Source of the DNA: Candidatus Barnesiella excrementavium
GTDB lineage: Bacteria > Bacteroidota > Bacteroidia > Bacteroidales > Barnesiellaceae
NCBI GenBank assembly: GCA_019115485.1
Contig: DXDM01000059.1
Span: 124,001 to 188,000, forward strand
Length of the DNA: 64,000 bases
Direction of reading: 5' to 3'
Shown here: positions 5,353 to 25,655 of the stretch, one piece after another
Numbering within the stretch: position 1 is the first letter of the stretch
Layout of the letters: every line of letters begins with the position of its first letter
Notes under the pieces: model-generated
The model's input: only the letters and a program-made list of their open reading frames with translations
What the model was told of the DNA's origin: nothing
The model's database searches: none
Made by a program: the position numbers and the translations under genes

Positions 5353-6057
5353 ATGCCCTACCGCCGATTGCCCAATACCGACAAAGCCCGCATTACCGCC
5401 CTCGAAAAGGGGGTGGCTATGGAGCACGCCTGCGATGTGGAGCATCAGGCCGCTTCGTACAAGACGCTGAACGAGGCCCGAGCCCTGATGCGACGGTTCA
5501 AGAGTGCGGTGGAGCAGTTCCAATATTGCTACACGGCTCAGGCCGAGGCCAACCGGCAGTATCAGAATCACCTGAAAATGGCGCGTCTCTACATCTCGCA
5601 CTTTATCCAGGTGCTCAATCTGGCGGTGGTGCGCAACGAGGTGCGCAAGGAGCACAAACCGTTCTACGGACTCGACCCCGACGATTTTACCGTGCCCGAC
5701 CTCACGAGCGAGAAGCATATCCTCATGTGGGGCGAACGGCTCATCGAGGGGGAGCGTGAGCGGCTTTCGCACGGGGGTGCCCCCATCTACAACCCCACGA
5801 TTGCCAAGGTGAAGGTGCACTACGATATTTTCAAAGATGCCTATTACGAGCAGCAGAACTACAAGCTCAACACCACCCGCTCGCAGTCGGGGCTCGATGC
5901 GCTGCGCGAGGAGGCCGACCGCATCATTCTCGACCTGTGGAACCAGGTGGAAGCCTTCTATGCCGCGCTTCCGCCGGCCGAACGGCTGGCTCGTTGCCGG
6001 GACTACGGTATCGTCTATTATTACCGAAGCGGCGAAAAACGACCCGAAAATGATTGA
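5353..6057 (+). CDS. Conserved hypothetical protein
   Basis: A 234-residue soluble, charged protein of unknown function. No signal peptide or membrane segment is visible. Residues about 40-75 are helix- and coiled-coil-like (QFQYCYTAQAEANRQYQ), the middle has a short aromatic stretch (HKPFYGLDPDDF), and the C-terminus is again helical. It begins 28 bases after the prenyl synthetase stop and overlaps the tatD start by 8 bases, so it is clearly in that operon. I do not recognise a named family; it resembles conserved Bacteroidales proteins of unknown role. Confidence 0.75.
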   Translation: MPYRRLPNTDKARITALEKGVAMEHACDVEHQAASYKTLNEARALMRRFKSAVEQFQYCYTAQAEANRQYQNHLKMARLYISHFIQVLNLAVVRNEVRKEHKPFYGLDPDDFTVPDLTSEKHILMWGERLIEGERERLSHGGAPIYNPTIAKVKVHYDIFKDAYYEQQNYKLNTTRSQSGLDALREEADRIILDLWNQVEAFYAALPPAERLARCRDYGIVYYYRSGEKRPEND

Positions 6058-10623: not shown

Positions 10624-10724
10624 TCCTGGGTCCATGTGATTAGGCTCCCCCTTTCTTCACTCCCGCTTTCCTGCTCTTGGCTTTTTTCCCGGGGTCTTCG
10701 TCGGGGCCAGGGGGTCGGGGGAAA

Positions 10725-10786
10725 ATAAAAAAGGCTGTCTCACGACAGCCAATCTGTAAACCTTAAATCTAATACTATGAAAAAAC
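10725..10786 (-). ncRNA. Candidate ~60-nt small RNA
   Basis: The 315 bases from 10641 to 10955 have no convincing gene, but the minus strand has a complete transcription unit. A full promoter (TTTG-N20-TATATTTG, 10824-10793) would start RNA near 10786. About 40 bases on is a 7-bp hairpin (10750-10744 with 10739-10733) followed by TTTTTTATTTT. The RNA would be about 60 bases, U-rich at the 5' end, with no open frame. The region is bounded upstream by the separate terminator of the uraH-like gene at 10864-10904. Confidence 0.5.
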
Positions 10787-10792
10787 ATGTGA

Positions 10793-19980: not shown

Positions 19981-20206
19981 AGTTATATGTTATTTGGTTT
20001 GTGTTGTCGGTCGATAGTCCGCCGCCGCTGCGGGAGGGGCGATGCGGGGTAATCGTGTTGCAAAAATAAAGAAATTTTTCGGTAATCGTTCATTTGCGGT
20101 GAAATCTTTCGGCGGGAGCCGAGTTTGTATGAAGCTGCCATAAAACGGGGCGTGGGCGGGGCTTACTTTGCGGTACCATATATGGGAAATCTAATCATTA
20201 AGTTTT

Positions 20207-20965
20207 ATGGAAAAGAATTATCAGAAAGAAAATCGCAGCCGACGCAGATCCCGCGATTTGCTGGTGGAGAAAATCTTGCAACGGTTCCCGGCCCGACATC
20301 TGGACAACGACGACGAGCTGTTCGATGCCTTGGAGGAGTATGACTCGTATCGCAACGAGCGCTATGAACGGCTGGCCGACGACCAGAGCAAGCTGTGCAA
20401 GTTGTTTATGGCCAACCCCAAGATGGGGGCTTTCATCTCGGACGTGATAGGGGGCGACGATGCCCTGGTGGCGTGTGTGCGCTACTTCGGGCGCGACATG
20501 CTCGACTGTGCCCAGGACGAAGGCCGCATGGCCGAGGTGCGCCGGGCCAACGACGAGTATCTGTCGCGTGTGGCCCGCTTCAACGAACTGGAATCGCAGA
20601 TGCGCGACAACTTGCAGAAGAGTACCCGCTGCATGCAGCGTTTCAAGGCCGAGAAGGGTATGAGCGAGAGTGAGTTCGAGTCGTTCCTCGACCGGGTGTA
20701 TCACCTGTGCAACCATGTGTTCATGGGCGATCTGAACGACGAGGTGCTCAACCTGCTCTTCAAGGGTCTGCACTACGACAGCGACCTGTCGTGTGCCGAG
20801 CGTGACGGCGAGGTGCGCGGACGCAATGCCCGCATCATCTTCGAGAAGCGTGAACGCTCGGGCGACGCGTTGCCCCCGTTGCGCAACAGCGGCAACTTCG
20901 AATCGGACGACGACCGGTCGCCCATCTTCGGGAACCGCCGTCGCCGCAGTGTGTGGGACTTGTAG
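20207..20965 (+). CDS. Phage scaffold-like protein of capsid cassette
   Basis: 252-residue soluble, highly charged and largely helical protein. It has a basic N-terminus (KENRSRRRSRDLL), the segment MANPKMGAFISDVIGGDDALVACVRYFG, a coiled-coil-like middle (about 105-145), then FLDRVYHLCNHVFMGDLNDEVL, LHYDSDLS and EVRGRNARI. In my recollection this order is seen in proteins directly upstream of DUF5309 capsid genes in Bacteroidetes phage-like loci, where they probably act as scaffolds; sequence alone does not prove that. It is the first gene of the virion-like cassette, and 108 bases separate it from the capsid gene. No standard promoter with both elements was found upstream. Confidence 0.55.
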   Translation: MEKNYQKENRSRRRSRDLLVEKILQRFPARHLDNDDELFDALEEYDSYRNERYERLADDQSKLCKLFMANPKMGAFISDVIGGDDALVACVRYFGRDMLDCAQDEGRMAEVRRANDEYLSRVARFNELESQMRDNLQKSTRCMQRFKAEKGMSESEFESFLDRVYHLCNHVFMGDLNDEVLNLLFKGLHYDSDLSCAERDGEVRGRNARIIFEKRERSGDALPPLRNSGNFESDDDRSPIFGNRRRRSVWDL

Positions 20966-21073
20966 CCGGTCATCGGAGGGAGATATACCTGCCCCCGGAA
21001 ATGAGAAAAACAATTTACAAACCTATTTTTTTGAAATCCTATGTTTTTGTCGAATTTAAATTGGAGAGAAAAG

Positions 21074-22474
21074 ATGAAAAAGTTTTTGATGAAGTGGAAA
21101 ACTCCGCTGCTTTGGCTGGTGGGACTGATTGCTCTGGTGGTGTGCTGGCACATCTGGTCGGGGCTGTTTGACGGAGGTCTGGCCCTGGCGGCCATTATCC
21201 CGGGCATGTCGGGGGGTAAACTCGTGACCAACGAGCCGCTCACGACCGATATCGTGCGCGAGAACAGTCCCTCGCTGTTGCGTAACGAGGTAGATAAACG
21301 CATCGTACGCATTCGCCCCATGTCCACGCCTATCGACCAGTTGTCGCGGTGGAACGGAGCCCGCAAGGCCTCGTCGATGATTGTTGATTATTATTCGGTC
21401 GACGTGAAGCCTACCAAGTCTTATTTGAAGACGGCCTATACGGCTCCCGACTCGGGTTCGGTCAACGACACGCACAAGAAGGCCAAAATCGATGCCGTCG
21501 ACAACAGCATCTTCGAAGTGTCCGAGACGATTCTCGTGCAGGGTGTGAAGGGGTACGAGCCCGACGGTACCCAGTCGAATGCCGATCTGGTGCTCTACAT
21601 CGCCGCCAAGGACGAGGAGACCGGTTCGCTCACGGTCTATCCCATCAACGGAGCCAAGATTGGCACGGTGACCAACTGCGTGCCCTCGATTCCCGAGAAT
21701 ACCCCGCTTATCCGCATGGGACGTGCCGCTACCGAGCTCGACGTACAGACGGCTCAGTTTGCCGCCCTGCCGGTCAAGAGCCAGAACTACTGTCAGATTT
21801 TCAAGATGCAAATCGAGCAGTCGACCTTCCAGAAGATTGCCAACAAGGAGGTCGAGTGGGACTTCTCCGATGCCGAGGAGGCCGCCATCTACGACATGCG
21901 TCTGGGCATGGAAAAGAGCTTCATGTTCGGGGTGAAGAACACCATCTTCGACCCCCGCAAAAAGGAGAACGTGATGCTCACCGGCGGTATCTGGTGGCAG
22001 GCCGGTAACCACTACACCTACAATCCGTCGGTCGAGATGACGCAAAACGACCTCATCGACATGATGCGTCAGGCCTTCACGGGCAACGGCGGCAACAAGC
22101 GCAAGATTCTCATCGGCGGATCGTCGTTCATCGGGCGCATCAACAAGATTGAGTTGACCAAGGTGGTGATGGCTCGTGAGGATAAAGTGATGTGGGGCAT
22201 TGACTTCTCGGAAATCCGCTCGAAGTTCGGTAAACTCTATGTGCTCTACTCCGAGGTCTTCGACGATTGCGGCATGAGCGACTACGGTTTCGTGTTCGAC
22301 CCCGAGTTTATCCAGAAGTGGTCGCATGTACCGTTCGATGCCCAGGAACTCGATCTGAAAAAATCGGGTGTGCGCAATACCGACGCCCTGGTGTTGACCG
22401 AGGCCAGCTGTTTGACACTGCGCTATCCGGCAGCCCACATGCGCATCGAGCCGGTAATCCCCGACGGCGATTGA
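21074..22474 (+). CDS. SU10/DUF5309-like major capsid protein with N-terminal membrane segment
   Basis: From ATG 21074 (behind a GGAG ribosome site) the protein has 466 residues. From about residue 53 it follows the SU10-type HK97-fold major capsid family: PLTTDIVRENSPSLL, DKRIVRIRPMSTPIDQLSR, IFKMQIEQSTFQKIA, and the hallmark helix AIYDMRLGMEKSFMFG, then TGGIWWQAG and a C-terminal domain. Residues 11-31 (PLLWLVGLIALVVCWHIW) form a clear membrane helix, with a second hydrophobic patch at 36-45, which soluble phage capsids do not have. It could be cleaved off during maturation or anchor the shell. A separate start at 21041 would add 11 residues. Flanked by scaffold-like and accessory genes. 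Confidence 0.75.
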   Translation: MKKFLMKWKTPLLWLVGLIALVVCWHIWSGLFDGGLALAAIIPGMSGGKLVTNEPLTTDIVRENSPSLLRNEVDKRIVRIRPMSTPIDQLSRWNGARKASSMIVDYYSVDVKPTKSYLKTAYTAPDSGSVNDTHKKAKIDAVDNSIFEVSETILVQGVKGYEPDGTQSNADLVLYIAAKDEETGSLTVYPINGAKIGTVTNCVPSIPENTPLIRMGRAATELDVQTAQFAALPVKSQNYCQIFKMQIEQSTFQKIANKEVEWDFSDAEEAAIYDMRLGMEKSFMFGVKNTIFDPRKKENVMLTGGIWWQAGNHYTYNPSVEMTQNDLIDMMRQAFTGNGGNKRKILIGGSSFIGRINKIELTKVVMAREDKVMWGIDFSEIRSKFGKLYVLYSEVFDDCGMSDYGFVFDPEFIQKWSHVPFDAQELDLKKSGVRNTDALVLTEASCLTLRYPAAHMRIEPVIPDGD

Positions 22475-22540
22475 GCCGCAACCCGGCCATAAGGTCGGCC
22501 CCGGCCCGGTGATAGCCGATTTTTGAAAGGGGGGACTGGA

Positions 22541-22578
22541 CGGGGCAACCGGAGATTCCAAACCGGCTGCCCCGTTTT
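22541..22578 (+). terminator. Hairpin after the capsid gene, inside the cassette
   Basis: 12-bp stem with one mismatch (22541-22552 with 22563-22574), 10-base loop, followed by TTTTCG. Probably a partial terminator that raises capsid mRNA over the downstream genes. Confidence 0.55.
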
Positions 22579-22616
22579 CGAAACAAAAGTATCGTCCATT
22601 AAAAAGAAAAGAGATT

Positions 22617-23000
22617 ATGATCAAGATTTATCGAACGAGCTTGGGCAATCTGTCCACATCGGTCGTTGTCAACGGGGTTCCCCACCGAGTCCATTTTTAC
22701 GCCCACGACGGGGTGAACGGACTCTTCTCGACCGACGATGAGGCGTTGCAACAAGCCTTGGAACGGAGTCGGGGATATGGCAAACGCTTTGCCCTGCTCG
22801 AAGGGAGCAAGACCCAGGCCGAGCCCCAAACCTATACCCTGGTTCCCGGCATACGCTCGTGGCAGGCAGCCCGAGACTATTTGAGAAAAGAGCCCTACGG
22901 GCTTACCGACGACGAGGTATCCACCCCGGCACTTATCGAGCAGGCGGCCGAGCGGTTTCACCTTGTATTCACACAATTAAAGAAAGGGAAAAAACGATGA
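22617..23000 (+). CDS. Small capsid-accessory-like protein with HeH-like domain
   Basis: 127 residues. The N-terminal half is a beta-rich piece, FRT-like (IYRTSLGNLSTSVVVNGV) with the phrase GLFSTDDEALQQALERS. The C-terminal third (WQAARDYLRKEPYGLTDDEVS..IEQAAERFHLVF) fits a HeH/SAP-like three-helix motif, often seen in small head proteins of phages. A lysine-rich tail ends it. Its stop codon overlaps the next ATG (ATGA, 22997-23000). Function is inferred from position between capsid and fibre-like genes; it may decorate the shell or bind nucleic acid. Confidence 0.5.
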   Translation: MIKIYRTSLGNLSTSVVVNGVPHRVHFYAHDGVNGLFSTDDEALQQALERSRGYGKRFALLEGSKTQAEPQTYTLVPGIRSWQAARDYLRKEPYGLTDDEVSTPALIEQAAERFHLVFTQLKKGKKR

Positions 23001-24097
23001 AAGTGAAAGAACATAGCCATTTGCGCGGGCAAAACGGATGCCTGGGATTTTTCTACGGGCTTGATGCTCTGCTCTCGGCCTATCCCGAGGGGGGCTTGCC
23101 CGGTGAGTTTTTTATCAACGGCAAGACGCAGTCGATTTGGGTGTGGGACGCTACCGGGCGTTCATGGTACGACTCCAATCATGCGGCTCCGGCTCCCTTC
23201 TTCGACGTTATTACCGATCCGGCTACATTCAGCCCGGGCGTTGAGAGTGGGGTGTCAGCTTGCTTTATCTATATTGCCGGCCGTGCCGGTTCCTATCAGT
23301 TTCCGGCGTTGAAAGGGTCGTCGACCTTGACGGTGACTACTACCTCGGCGGCTGTGATTGCGCTGGTATGGAACGGTACTTCCTGGCGCGATTATGTCAC
23401 CCCCCTATCGCTCGAAAACGTGGTGCCCCCGAACTATATGTATCGTGGAGCCTGGTCGGAAACATTGACCTATATCTATGCCGACGGTATTGTCGATGTG
23501 GTCTATTATCAGGGGAGGTACTATCGGGTGAAACAGGAGGGCAGCATTACCGGCGAGGTTCCCGACCAGTCGAGCAATTGGGAAAGACTCACACGCTTTT
23601 ATACCGTTGCCGGAAAGTTGGATATGCCTCAGGGAGAGGTTTTGCGTCTCAACCAGCAACAGGCTATCCGGGTAGAGAGCGGTGACTCTTCATGGGATTT
23701 GTGCGATGGTATCATCAAGCATATGGGTACAGGAACTTTACTGTCTCAGGCTGGTGAGTTGCGCATACCTGTTGAGGGTGGTGAAGTGATTATAGGCCCC
23801 TCTTGTAGAGGTATAAAGTATATGAAGGGTGAGGACACAAGTCTGGTATTCGATTTGGACAGTACCGGAAACGCTAGAATCTTGATGATTCGTAGAGAAG
23901 AATCGGGGAAGATTCAGATGTATGTGATGCCTCATGCGCTGACATTGACTCGGTTTGATAACTATGGCAATATAATTAGGTTCAATAGCATGACTGTCGA
24001 TGGAATAAATTGGCAGCTGAAAAAGTGGAGCGACAATCTGATTGAAGGTGATATTTATGTGGACGAGAATAATTTCCTGAAACAGAAGGGGGGATAG
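22997..24097 (+). CDS. Fibre-like virion protein
   Basis: 366 residues, coupled to the previous gene by ATGA. The N-terminus contains a fibre-type lead (GEFFINGKTQSIWVWDATGRSW), then beta-rich sequence and a chitin-binding-3-like module near 135-185 (YRGAWSETLTYIYADGIVDVVYYQGRYYRV, with W and Y spacing; then SSNWERL). The C-terminal part (from about residue 230) is beta-rich without repeats I recognise. The DNA of that part, about 23690-24090, is visibly poorer in GC than the rest of the cassette, as expected of a swapped or fast-evolving receptor-binding tip. It could equally be an internal shell-surface protein. No tail-tube or baseplate gene accompanies it. Confidence 0.5.
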   Translation: MKVKEHSHLRGQNGCLGFFYGLDALLSAYPEGGLPGEFFINGKTQSIWVWDATGRSWYDSNHAAPAPFFDVITDPATFSPGVESGVSACFIYIAGRAGSYQFPALKGSSTLTVTTTSAAVIALVWNGTSWRDYVTPLSLENVVPPNYMYRGAWSETLTYIYADGIVDVVYYQGRYYRVKQEGSITGEVPDQSSNWERLTRFYTVAGKLDMPQGEVLRLNQQQAIRVESGDSSWDLCDGIIKHMGTGTLLSQAGELRIPVEGGEVIIGPSCRGIKYMKGEDTSLVFDLDSTGNARILMIRREESGKIQMYVMPHALTLTRFDNYGNIIRFNSMTVDGINWQLKKWSDNLIEGDIYVDENNFLKQKGG

Positions 24098-24100
24098 GCC

Positions 24101-24724
24101 ATGGAGATAACTGTCGACGATTTGATCAGGCGGGTAAAGACAAACATGGAAGAACTCATCGACGAGAGCGAGGAGTCGATTGTGTTGTCGGTAGGTATAT
24201 CCGCTGAGCAGTATATACGGGAGAAGCTTCCCGATGCCATTCTGTCGGTGTTTGCCTCGGCTCCTGTCACAGAGTTGCCGCAGACCGATTGCGCTTCGTC
24301 CCTGACCCCCGAGCGACGCTCCGATGGTAGCGGACGGGTGTGGTTGCCTGCCGATGTGTGGCGCATGACCGAGTTCTGTATGGAGGGTTGGCTGCAACCG
24401 GTTACATCGTTTATCGACCACACGTCGCCGGCTTATGAATTGCAGTTCAATCCATATACTCGGGGTGGAATAGCTTTTCCGGTATGTATCCTGTCGAATG
24501 AAGCGGGGCAAAAGAGTCTCGACTACTATTCATTGCCTCCCTGTATTGAGAATCATCGGGTGAAGACGGCTCGCTATGTGGCCTATCCTCGTCCCGATGG
24601 AGACAAGTACGAAATAGCCGAGGCCCTGGTGCCGTTTGTTTGCTACACTTGTGCCGCTCTTGTGTTCGAAATACTGGGGCAGCCCGATAGGGCCGCCTCC
24701 ATGTTGCGCAGCATTGTGCGATAG
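24101..24724 (+). CDS. Head-completion/adaptor-like protein
   Basis: 207 residues, starting 3 bases after the fibre-like gene. The helical N-terminus (ITVDDLIRRVKTNMEELIDES) is followed by RVWLPADVWRMTEFCMEGW and NPYTRGGIAFPVCILSNEAGQKSLDYYSLP, and by an Ala- and Cys-containing helical end. This pattern resembles conserved proteins next to capsid genes in Bacteroidetes phage-like loci, perhaps head-tail adaptors; that rests on recall and context, not on a decisive motif. Last gene of the cassette, followed by a hairpin at 24769-24795. Confidence 0.5.
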   Translation: MEITVDDLIRRVKTNMEELIDESEESIVLSVGISAEQYIREKLPDAILSVFASAPVTELPQTDCASSLTPERRSDGSGRVWLPADVWRMTEFCMEGWLQPVTSFIDHTSPAYELQFNPYTRGGIAFPVCILSNEAGQKSLDYYSLPPCIENHRVKTARYVAYPRPDGDKYEIAEALVPFVCYTCAALVFEILGQPDRAASMLRSIVR

Positions 24725-24818: not shown

Positions 24819-25655
24819 CTATTTTTTCAGCCGTTCATAGGGGATATGGCCTATTTGAGCTGCGGTCTCGGAGTAAGAACTTTGTGCTGAGCCCAGTATC
24901 TGATTGGTGTGTGAGAGCAGATAAAGTTCGATGAGAGCCTCGCGCATTCCTTCGATACTGTTGCGATTGGCCCGGTGAGGCGAGTAGAGAACCCGGTCGC
25001 CGAATCGGGCGGAGATAAGGGCTTTGTCCTCTTCGGAGTCGGTAGCCAGATAGAATTTAGTATCGGCATGGCGGTCAATCTCTTCCTGTATGCGATTGAC
25101 AAAAAGGTAGGTAGGACTTTGCGCAATGGCGATGGTATGGTCGGTGCGTCGGATATGTACTCCTATCGTGTGAGGTCCGAATTGGGCCATGCGAGCCTCG
25201 ATCTCTTGTTGCAGGAGAGGCTGCGGCTTGAAGATGGCAAAGCGCTCATTCTCGTTGTGCAGTTTGTAGAAATAGGAGAAGGAGGCGATATAGACCTTGT
25301 GCCCTCGGGCCCACTCTTCAAAATCGAACTGTTGGCGAAGGCATTGTAATATCTTTTTCTCGTACAGGCGACGATCGAATATCGGCTGTTGAAACAGACG
25401 GGGAATGAATAGATTTTTGCGGCGAGGCCGGTCGTAGAGCAGATAGTCCGGTCCCGACGCTTCGCTTACCGTAACCCCAGGCAGCTCAAATGGAGCAAAA
25501 AGTTGGTCGAACCGGCAATTCAGTCCCTGGTCCTTGAACCACACGATATGCAACGAGCTGTTGCATTGCCGACTCAAAGCAACGGCCGAGTCGATGGCTC
25601 GCATACGATTGGCCAGTCCGCCCACGGGCACAAACCATATTCTGTCTCTTTTCAT
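24819..25655 (-). CDS. Fucosyltransferase-like glycosyltransferase
   Basis: 278 residues, cytosolic. The start WFVPVGGLANRMRAIDSAVALSR and the motif GVHIRRTDH near residue 172 match the GDP-fucose-binding pattern (HxRRxD) of alpha-1,2/alpha-1,6-fucosyltransferase and NodZ-type enzymes; FYLATDSEEDK and LYLLSHTNQILG-type acceptor-side segments follow. It probably transfers a sugar to a surface glycan. The acceptor is unknown. It is a single-gene unit converging on the capsid cassette; a TACTTTTG box lies at 25688-25681. Confidence 0.7.
   Translation of the reverse strand: MKRDRIWFVPVGGLANRMRAIDSAVALSRQCNSSLHIVWFKDQGLNCRFDQLFAPFELPGVTVSEASGPDYLLYDRPRRKNLFIPRLFQQPIFDRRLYEKKILQCLRQQFDFEEWARGHKVYIASFSYFYKLHNENERFAIFKPQPLLQQEIEARMAQFGPHTIGVHIRRTDHTIAIAQSPTYLFVNRIQEEIDRHADTKFYLATDSEEDKALISARFGDRVLYSPHRANRNSIEGMREALIELYLLSHTNQILGSAQSSYSETAAQIGHIPYERLKK

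Follow-up and report, generated by a model that had tools for sequence, protein, structure and literature searches.

The window analysed here is a 64-kb stretch of the draft genome of Candidatus Barnesiella excrementavium (contig DXDM01000059.1, positions 124,001 to 188,000). At window positions 20207-24724 it holds a cassette of five open reading frames (ORFs), g1 to g5, which lie on one strand between a fumarase gene and a gene on the reverse strand. In our judgement the cassette is probably one module, that for the head, of a phage particle which the host has domesticated and whose genes are dispersed; such a particle is most likely a gene transfer agent (GTA). The features of the locus are as follows (aa, amino acids).

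20136..20171, + strand: promoter-like element in two parts, TGCCATAA-N23-TTTGC, which precedes the cassette and is shared with the other modules; the draft genome has only four exact copies of the pattern, this one included
20207..20965, + strand: g1, scaffold-like protein, 252 aa (phrog_22323, E 1.5e-34)
21074..22474, + strand: g2, SU10-type major capsid protein, 466 aa (PF17236, E 1.4e-50; phrog_26635, E 6.6e-99); the longest possible ORF begins at 21041
22617..23000, + strand: g3, small accessory virion protein, 127 aa (weak match to phrog_23743, E 3.5e-4)
22997..24097, + strand: g4, fibre-like and presumed receptor-binding protein, 366 aa
24101..24724, + strand: g5, head-to-tail adaptor-like protein, 207 aa (phrog_22135, E 2.4e-20)

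An earlier annotation made from these letters (hereafter the sequence-only reading) had described five same-strand genes with virion-like products, an SU10-type capsid among them, and coupling of genes by ATGA. The ORFs are present, and counterparts of all five adjoin one another in L014, a prophage-like contig (IMGVR_UViG_2681813420) of which 17.8 of 27.5 kb were covered; the PF17236 match of g2 scores 172.9 bits against a curated cut-off of 24.1, which places the protein in the SU10 capsid family; and the start of g4 overlaps the end of g3 by ATGA. A 12-sequence profile also links g2 to the capsid of PDB entry 9in6 (E 1.2e-9). Two finer labels, ‘HeH-like’ for the accessory protein and ‘carbohydrate-binding module’ for the fibre-like protein, find no support in Pfam. 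As for the core-gene flanks, the fumarase is confirmed by matches to PF05683 and PF05681, but the supposed glycosyltransferase (24819-25655) is not, giving no Pfam match at E 0.001. The families phrog_22323, phrog_26635 and phrog_22135 are all annotated as being of unknown function. Amino-acid identity to the phage-side counterparts is 26-31% for g1 (to the gene preceding the capsid gene in L014 and in two phages), 64% for g2 to the L014 capsid and 41-42% to those of the two phages, and 29% for g3 to the L014 gene in the equivalent position; g5 is 36% (BF1-TP2) and 40% (L014) identical to its counterparts over part of its length. The N-terminal part of g4 is 38% identical over ~125 residues to a g4-like gene of L014, and a PHROG search with g4 gave no usable match.

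Relatives of the capsid and the scaffold occur in all three of the Bacteroides phages BF1-TP2, BKO1-TP3 and BS-TP4 (PQ571263, PQ571269 and PQ571277). The two phages examined also have the adaptor, portal and terminase families, and their order of scaffold, capsid, small gene and adaptor is that of the cassette, in keeping with the phage-type capsid and scaffold pattern that had been recognized from the sequence. Unlike the scattered Barnesiella modules described below, the Bacteroides phages have genomes of 64-68 kb, and the two examined are contiguous units that include integrase, repressor and replication genes, so that these are presumably temperate phages. L014 resembles the window in having adaptor and g4-like genes beside the capsid; it differs from Barnesiella in that its terminase adjoins the capsid instead of being dispersed, and its g4-like gene follows the adaptor. 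Lysozyme- and spanin-like genes, named by eye, come next in L014.

The N-terminus of g2 (window 21074-21200) is hydrophobic and signal- or anchor-like. Of the 11 relatives scored, 10 have a similar capsid N-terminus, as have both scored phages (L015 17942-19900; L016 18073-20000), and a rhomboid-annotated gene lies near the scaffold and capsid genes in both of those phages (PF01694, E 1.5e-8 for BS-TP4). Head assembly may start at the membrane, with cleavage then releasing the heads.

Within the window, proteins chosen from the two phages and L014, a query set that included terminases, portals and two integrases and was also used on the fetched loci, matched only the counterparts g1-g5 (E 0.001). 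By this test, the reported lack of packaging genes therefore holds for the window, but not for the genome. With the L014 terminase and the BS-TP4 portal as queries, both genes were found in 13 of 13 capsid-carrying genomes (nine of Barnesiella and four from other families), and each of the nine Barnesiella genomes has one match for the large terminase and one for the P22-like portal. In the window's own draft genome (G000), three contigs carry them: C35 the terminase, C30 the portal and C54 the cassette. G001 is a relative assembled as a single 3.08-Mb contig; here the portal is at 1,148,861, an ejection-type protein at 1,155,959, the capsid at 1,395,189 and the terminase at 1,427,261, which places portal and capsid ~246 kb apart; in G007, the interval from portal to terminase spans ~430 kb. 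In Barnesiella, terminase and portal each stand as a solitary phage-type gene, the former between a RelA/SpoT-type region and thioredoxin, the latter next to ferritin-like and H+-pyrophosphatase genes; these housekeeping neighbours are conserved across the seven Barnesiella genomes compared. The terminase is named from PHROG terminase models (best E 2.5e-18) and from notes in phage records, with no Pfam match and no PDB relative found by sequence. It retains KARQWGGST, which we take to be a Walker A-like motif, in all five non-phage genomes examined.

A further module, module D, comprises three genes for proteins of 172, 166 and 774 aa and lies ~4-10 kb from the portal in the eight genomes in which the two share a contig. 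The 172-aa protein is related to BF1-TP2 gp70 and to an L014 gene, and the 774-aa protein, present in all nine Barnesiella genomes, matches a stretch of the giant protein of the phages; module D may encode ejection or internal virion proteins. In the terminase and portal loci fetched from Barnesiella, the phage queries matched only the terminase, the portal and module D. Seven of the nine Barnesiella genomes also have an endolysin gene of the Amidase_3 type (phrog_435, E 6.9e-38). An active prophage would have a contiguous genome with integration and regulation genes; as the phage queries used matched only the five cassette genes in the window, and only the terminase, the portal and module D in the other loci, an ordinary prophage was rejected for Barnesiella.

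In a set of 60 genomes, the capsid occurs in 13 and the terminase in the identical 13; outside Barnesiella, both are present in 4/51 genomes and neither in 47/51. The cassette stands beside fumarase (within ~4 kb) in all nine Barnesiella genomes, with a variable opposite flank. A scan of GTDB species genomes with two short peptide patterns, which yields a lower bound, returned at least 33 capsid loci, with Barnesiella sp. An22 and An55 among the carriers. Fumarase adjoins the cassette in 15 of the 33 loci, nine of them outside Barnesiella, and some loci end before the flank. Every one of the 33 genomes behind these loci has a terminase homologue, with a stop in G087 and a split over two contigs in G072, and second terminase copies occur in G070, G079, G084, G085 and G086. 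A portal homologue is likewise found in 33/33, a count that includes pieces or cut-off matches (G072, G076, G085 and G090) and stop-bearing matches (G087, G090 and G091). The 33 include real prophages, such as that of Odoribacter laneus (L116). Loci L084, L085, L086 and L087 come from the same assemblies as G004, G005, G002 and G006, and L088, L090, L092 and L098 from those of G003, G008, G036 and G029; the sets of 13 and 33 genomes overlap in eight, giving 38 distinct genomes.

The family takes other forms in some of these genomes. Contiguous prophages exist in G027 (L028) and in O. laneus (L116). In G036, of another family (L025 3405-8775), the cassette continues into a 1270-aa fibre-like gene, a phrog_38864 protein, an endolysin (phrog_894) and a 147-aa protein, and a lysis gene therefore adjoins the head genes there. 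In G033 (L027 7627-10880) and in L114, capsid, adaptor and P22-like portal lie side by side; the G033 portal is short and its terminase is on a different contig, and this arrangement is possibly another domesticated lineage. In G080 (L104 9892-15046), the N-terminal part of a g4-like gene is apparently repeated on either side of the adaptor gene.

The strongest result concerns the sequence in front of the modules, which links them. The upstream regions of the cassette, the terminase, the portal and module D have in common the pattern TGCCAYAA-N23-TTTGC, with identical spacing. There are four exact copies in G000 and four in G001, each just upstream of one of the four modules, and a reversed-pattern control gave none in either genome. 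Across the nine genomes, 38 exact matches were obtained against two for the reversed control: 30 before the four modules, two before a tail-spike-like gene, five before a small-protein family of G007, and one unexplained. With up to two mismatches to a slightly stricter pattern, the element is present in 36/36 module-by-genome cases (29 exact, six with one mismatch and one with two). It also lies within ~200 bases upstream of the amidase gene, with no more than two mismatches, in 7/7 genomes, where the best amidase match per genome was used and second, more distant matches in G005, G006 and G007 were left out. A whole-genome search of six genomes with one mismatch allowed returned 69 matches, the reversed control 18; four genomes gained amidase sites from it, and most of the other extras may be chance matches. 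The pattern was derived from the module sites, so that matching there is partly by construction, and the informative result is the near-absence of other genomic matches.

The Barnesiella form of the element was not found before the modules of other lineages with the first patterns searched; their own versions were spotted by eye and then tested against shuffles. G065, whose capsid is 73% identical, has a version with exactly three matches in 2.9 Mb, which precede the capsid cassette, the portal and the terminase, and this pattern has no match in five other genomes. Three-way upstream similarity at a fixed distance from TTTG was found in 10 of 17 non-Barnesiella genomes (near-duplicates G075/G077 and G080/G082 among the 17), where it was reached by at most 1 of 300 shuffles; these were single-base shuffles with TTTG kept, which controls in part for AT-rich bias. 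From these sequences, the element seems to drift by lineage yet remain common to the modules, as would be expected if one regulator reads it.

The element is also seen in other settings. G007 has lone proteins of 150-232 aa, from one or two related families and in unrelated gene surroundings, with the element upstream (L227-L230, L232, L233, L235 and L239; exact in five, one mismatch in three); those searched gave no notable Pfam or PHROG match. In two species, a tail-spike-like gene of ~800 aa stands behind the element (L231 833-3208; L236 868-3306), near the same 5′-nucleotidase-like gene; its product is pectate-lyase-like, below the Pfam cut-off. In L014, the divergent region between scaffold and terminase (5470-5617) contains the words TATGCGATA and ATCGCATA, which by eye resemble the G065 element, as if the switch descended from a phage late promoter.

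One suggestion of the sequence-only reading was that the genes might form a nanocompartment or a protein-delivery particle. An encapsulin nanocompartment is a shell that functions without phage packaging genes. A shell made from g1-g5 alone would explain why the cassette stands alone in the window, and why the capsid is the most constrained of the module genes. Encapsulins, too, are virus-derived shells retained by bacteria (PMC8346489, in its available part), but they differ from the present system, in which portal, terminase and adaptor are retained alongside the capsid. Portal and terminase homologues were found in 13/13 and 33/33 genomes, some of the latter being real prophages. Both genes co-diverge with the capsid (see below), and in Barnesiella they lie elsewhere in the chromosome behind the same element; their presence removes the main reason for proposing a nanocompartment or a pure delivery shell. 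A nanocompartment without packaging was rejected once terminase and portal had been found genome-wide, and we regard a shell or protein-delivery particle of g1-g5 as highly improbable. The sequence-only reading had named, as a condition that would refute it, that the remaining phage genes lie elsewhere in the genome as parts of a split prophage. This came true in a form that it did not foresee, since the split is of long standing, is conserved and appears to be co-regulated.

Purifying selection acts on the module genes. The ratio of non-synonymous to synonymous substitutions (dN/dS) was calculated as the median of pairwise values over nine genomes by a simple counting method, with exclusion of pairs saturated at synonymous sites; for many pairs dS was not finite, and no values were obtained for two flank genes. 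Over ten module genes the medians are 0.035-0.176: 0.063, 0.035, 0.116, 0.170 and 0.127 for g1 to g5, which is the outcome of a check proposed in the sequence-only reading, 0.100 for the terminase, 0.068 for the portal, and 0.105, 0.176 and 0.152 for module D. Among host genes, fumarase gave 0.012, H+-pyrophosphatase 0.021 (eight genomes), RelA 0.040 and thioredoxin 0.122 (eight genomes); ubiE was compared in six genomes. The protein of g4 evolves fast, with a mean amino-acid identity in the genus of 56.5% as against 89.9% for g2. Nine of the ten module genes have no internal stop in any of the nine genomes; the portal of G008 has a stop at codon 620 of 690, near the C-terminus, past which the alignment was carried. 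Selection and the position beside fumarase in all nine Barnesiella genomes bear out the earlier view of a co-opted system rather than an active prophage. Of the readings then offered, ‘gene-transfer relic’ comes nearest, although ‘relic’ is probably wrong, since the set is intact with one element.

These data also bear on the idea that the modules are remnants of one old prophage, rearranged and decaying, and conserved through common descent only. The fetched Barnesiella loci do retain virion genes only, as far as the phage queries reveal, and two matches in G006 are flagged with stops. Synonymous differences in the module genes nevertheless amount to 0.53-0.75 of sites on average, against the low dN/dS values and the nine stop-free genes just described, and the element is retained before all modules, so we give decay very little credence.

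Distances between the capsid, terminase and portal proteins are correlated at 0.87-0.92 across 22 genomes (one of Barnesiella and 21 others, including three on the phage side: G027, G033 and G092), values that no permutation reached. Fumarase, the one host gene on which the test of co-divergence with the host rests, correlates with the three at r 0.77-0.84 over nine genomes (0/5000 permutations). In the closest pair, G000 and G001, the synonymous distance is 0.26 for g2, 1.04 for g4, 1.67 for g5 and 0.67, 0.80 and 1.25 for module D, and the outer parts are therefore swapped or diversify faster. Divergence of g4, g5 and module D above the 0.26 of the capsid could also be expected if the modules formed a multipartite or satellite-like element, still mobile and travelling one module at a time with a helper phage. 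The terminase and portal, however, have kept their housekeeping neighbours in seven Barnesiella genomes, the cassette its place beside fumarase in nine of nine, and neither of two phage integrases used as queries matched the fetched loci; continuing mobility of this kind has, in our view, scarcely any likelihood.

The interpretation as a GTA can be set against the definition in the available text of PMC9662315, three of whose six features are found here. The particle proteins derive from tailed phages, as the capsid, portal, terminase, scaffold, adaptor and ejection-type homologues attest. The genes are endogenized at multiple loci, with cassette, terminase, portal and module D apart in 9/9 Barnesiella genomes. 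Inheritance is vertical with host co-diversification, as indicated by the fumarase correlations of 0.77-0.84 (weak within Barnesiella). The remaining three features, encapsidation of mostly random host DNA, a head too small for the agent's own genome and delivery of DNA to other cells, belong to the model that follows.

We propose a model in which a putative regulator that reads the element would switch on all modules together in a subset of cells. The g1 protein would scaffold the assembly of g2 heads, and the lone terminase would pump DNA into the head through the P22-like portal; with the particle's own genes scattered, the packaged DNA would therefore be mostly random host DNA. The products of g5, g3 and g4, together with the ejection-type module, would complete a short-tailed particle. 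Cells would then lyse, in many species perhaps aided by the amidase behind the same element, and the particle would inject mainly chromosomal DNA into relatives. Given distances of ~246 kb (portal to capsid) and ~430 kb (portal to terminase), and phage genomes of 64-68 kb, a particle would probably not carry the whole set, in which case selfish spread would not explain its upkeep.

PBSX, a single contiguous prophage-type locus, differs from the modules scattered over the Barnesiella chromosome. According to the available part of PMC7667829, it is a defective phage of Bacillus subtilis that packages host DNA, although its action resembles that of a bacteriocin. A domesticated killing or signalling particle of this type, which packages host DNA without useful delivery and kills or lyses neighbours that lack the set, is the main rival to a GTA. 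Similar gene content would be expected of it, g4 is fast-evolving, and tail-spike-like genes occur with the element in two species. The ejection-type module in nine of nine Barnesiella genomes, by its presumed role, fits DNA delivery instead, and as all nine Barnesiella genomes searched carry the set, few non-carriers would be left as targets within the genus. On balance, we hold a PBSX-like particle to be unlikely.

Our preferred reading as a GTA has several points against it. DNA packaging, release and delivery are deduced from the genes, whereas for the GTA of Faecalibacterium (FpGTA) particles and 8.4-8.9 kb of packaged DNA have been demonstrated (PMC12946183, available text). The element is promoter-like and its regulator putative; in 7 of the 17 non-Barnesiella genomes there is no clear sharing of the element, three giving values reached by 12, 34 and 118 of 300 shuffles and four having no scorable triple. 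The fetched Barnesiella loci contain no terminase small subunit, no genome-wide search for it having been made. No amidase homologue was found in G000 or G001. Matches in G006 are flagged with TAA, two in the ejection-type protein (L179) and one in the amidase (L250); the aligned ejection-type gene of G006 has no internal stop, and the flagged TAAs may sit at match ends. An AlphaFold model of g2 (12 sequences) is poor, with a mean pLDDT (predicted local distance difference test) of 33.8.

Descent and dispersal add to these points. Within Barnesiella, the correlation with fumarase is weak (portal 0.33, terminase 0.46, capsid 0.39; values attained in 540, 47 and 294 of 5000 permutations, respectively), and the core tree disagrees with several splits of the modules that have support above 0.9, as it does with some splits of two host genes; short branches and some exchange fit both results. 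Dispersal outside Barnesiella is often partial, with ~2.5 kb between portal and terminase in G073 and G089 and ~5 kb between portal and capsid in G088. Many of the genomes are draft metagenome-assembled genomes.

Work on GTAs covers few groups, chiefly the Alphaproteobacteria, where RcGTA, the agent of Rhodobacter capsulatus, keeps one main head-tail cluster. The Barnesiella system differs from it in having a podovirus-type, P22-like portal and an SU10-type capsid, and in placing capsid, portal and terminase each at its own locus. As described in the available part of PMC9662315, RcGTA (Rhodogtaviriformidae) has genes at five loci, and the two systems are alike in being phage-derived, chromosomally fixed, vertically inherited and distributed over several loci. 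FpGTA (PMC12946183, January 2026, available text) is likewise podovirus-like and from a gut anaerobe. Its host, however, belongs to the Bacillota, and its scaffold, capsid, portal and terminase share one 10.5-kb operon; the two operons are ~125 kb apart in one strain, with lysis genes in the second. In its available text, the same paper presents FpGTA as the human gut's first GTA-like element and as the first of podovirus-like morphology, and for Bacteroidota it names lateral transduction. The literature searched, which included few subscription papers or preprints, showed no GTA from Bacteroidota, and none appears in the available parts of PMC7947584, PMC12946183, PMC9662315 and PMC7667829.

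Our reading is of a GTA that was domesticated separately from the known ones, is scattered, and has a promoter element of its own. With somewhat less confidence than in the assignment of the cassette itself, we favour the broader view that the system belongs to an undescribed Bacteroidota GTA family, older than several genera, in which capsid, portal and terminase are scattered and a dedicated promoter element diverges by lineage with its putative regulator; the family would offer gut Bacteroidales a native means of exchanging DNA. If this is true, a vertically inherited GTA would give the Bacteroidales, a major gut order, a DNA-exchange particle of their own. With genes scattered and one element in common, cluster-based prophage finders would probably miss such a system, and searching for phage genes that have a private promoter in common is a way to detect similar systems elsewhere.

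Two further results concern other functions. A defence system was rejected after a PADLOC search with eight proteins returned no meaningful match, the two hits being weak (E 2e-4 and 1e-3). Elsewhere in the window, at 10723-10788 on the - strand, lies a FopS-family Bacteroidetes small RNA (RF04319, 65 bits), near a tRNA-Ser gene.

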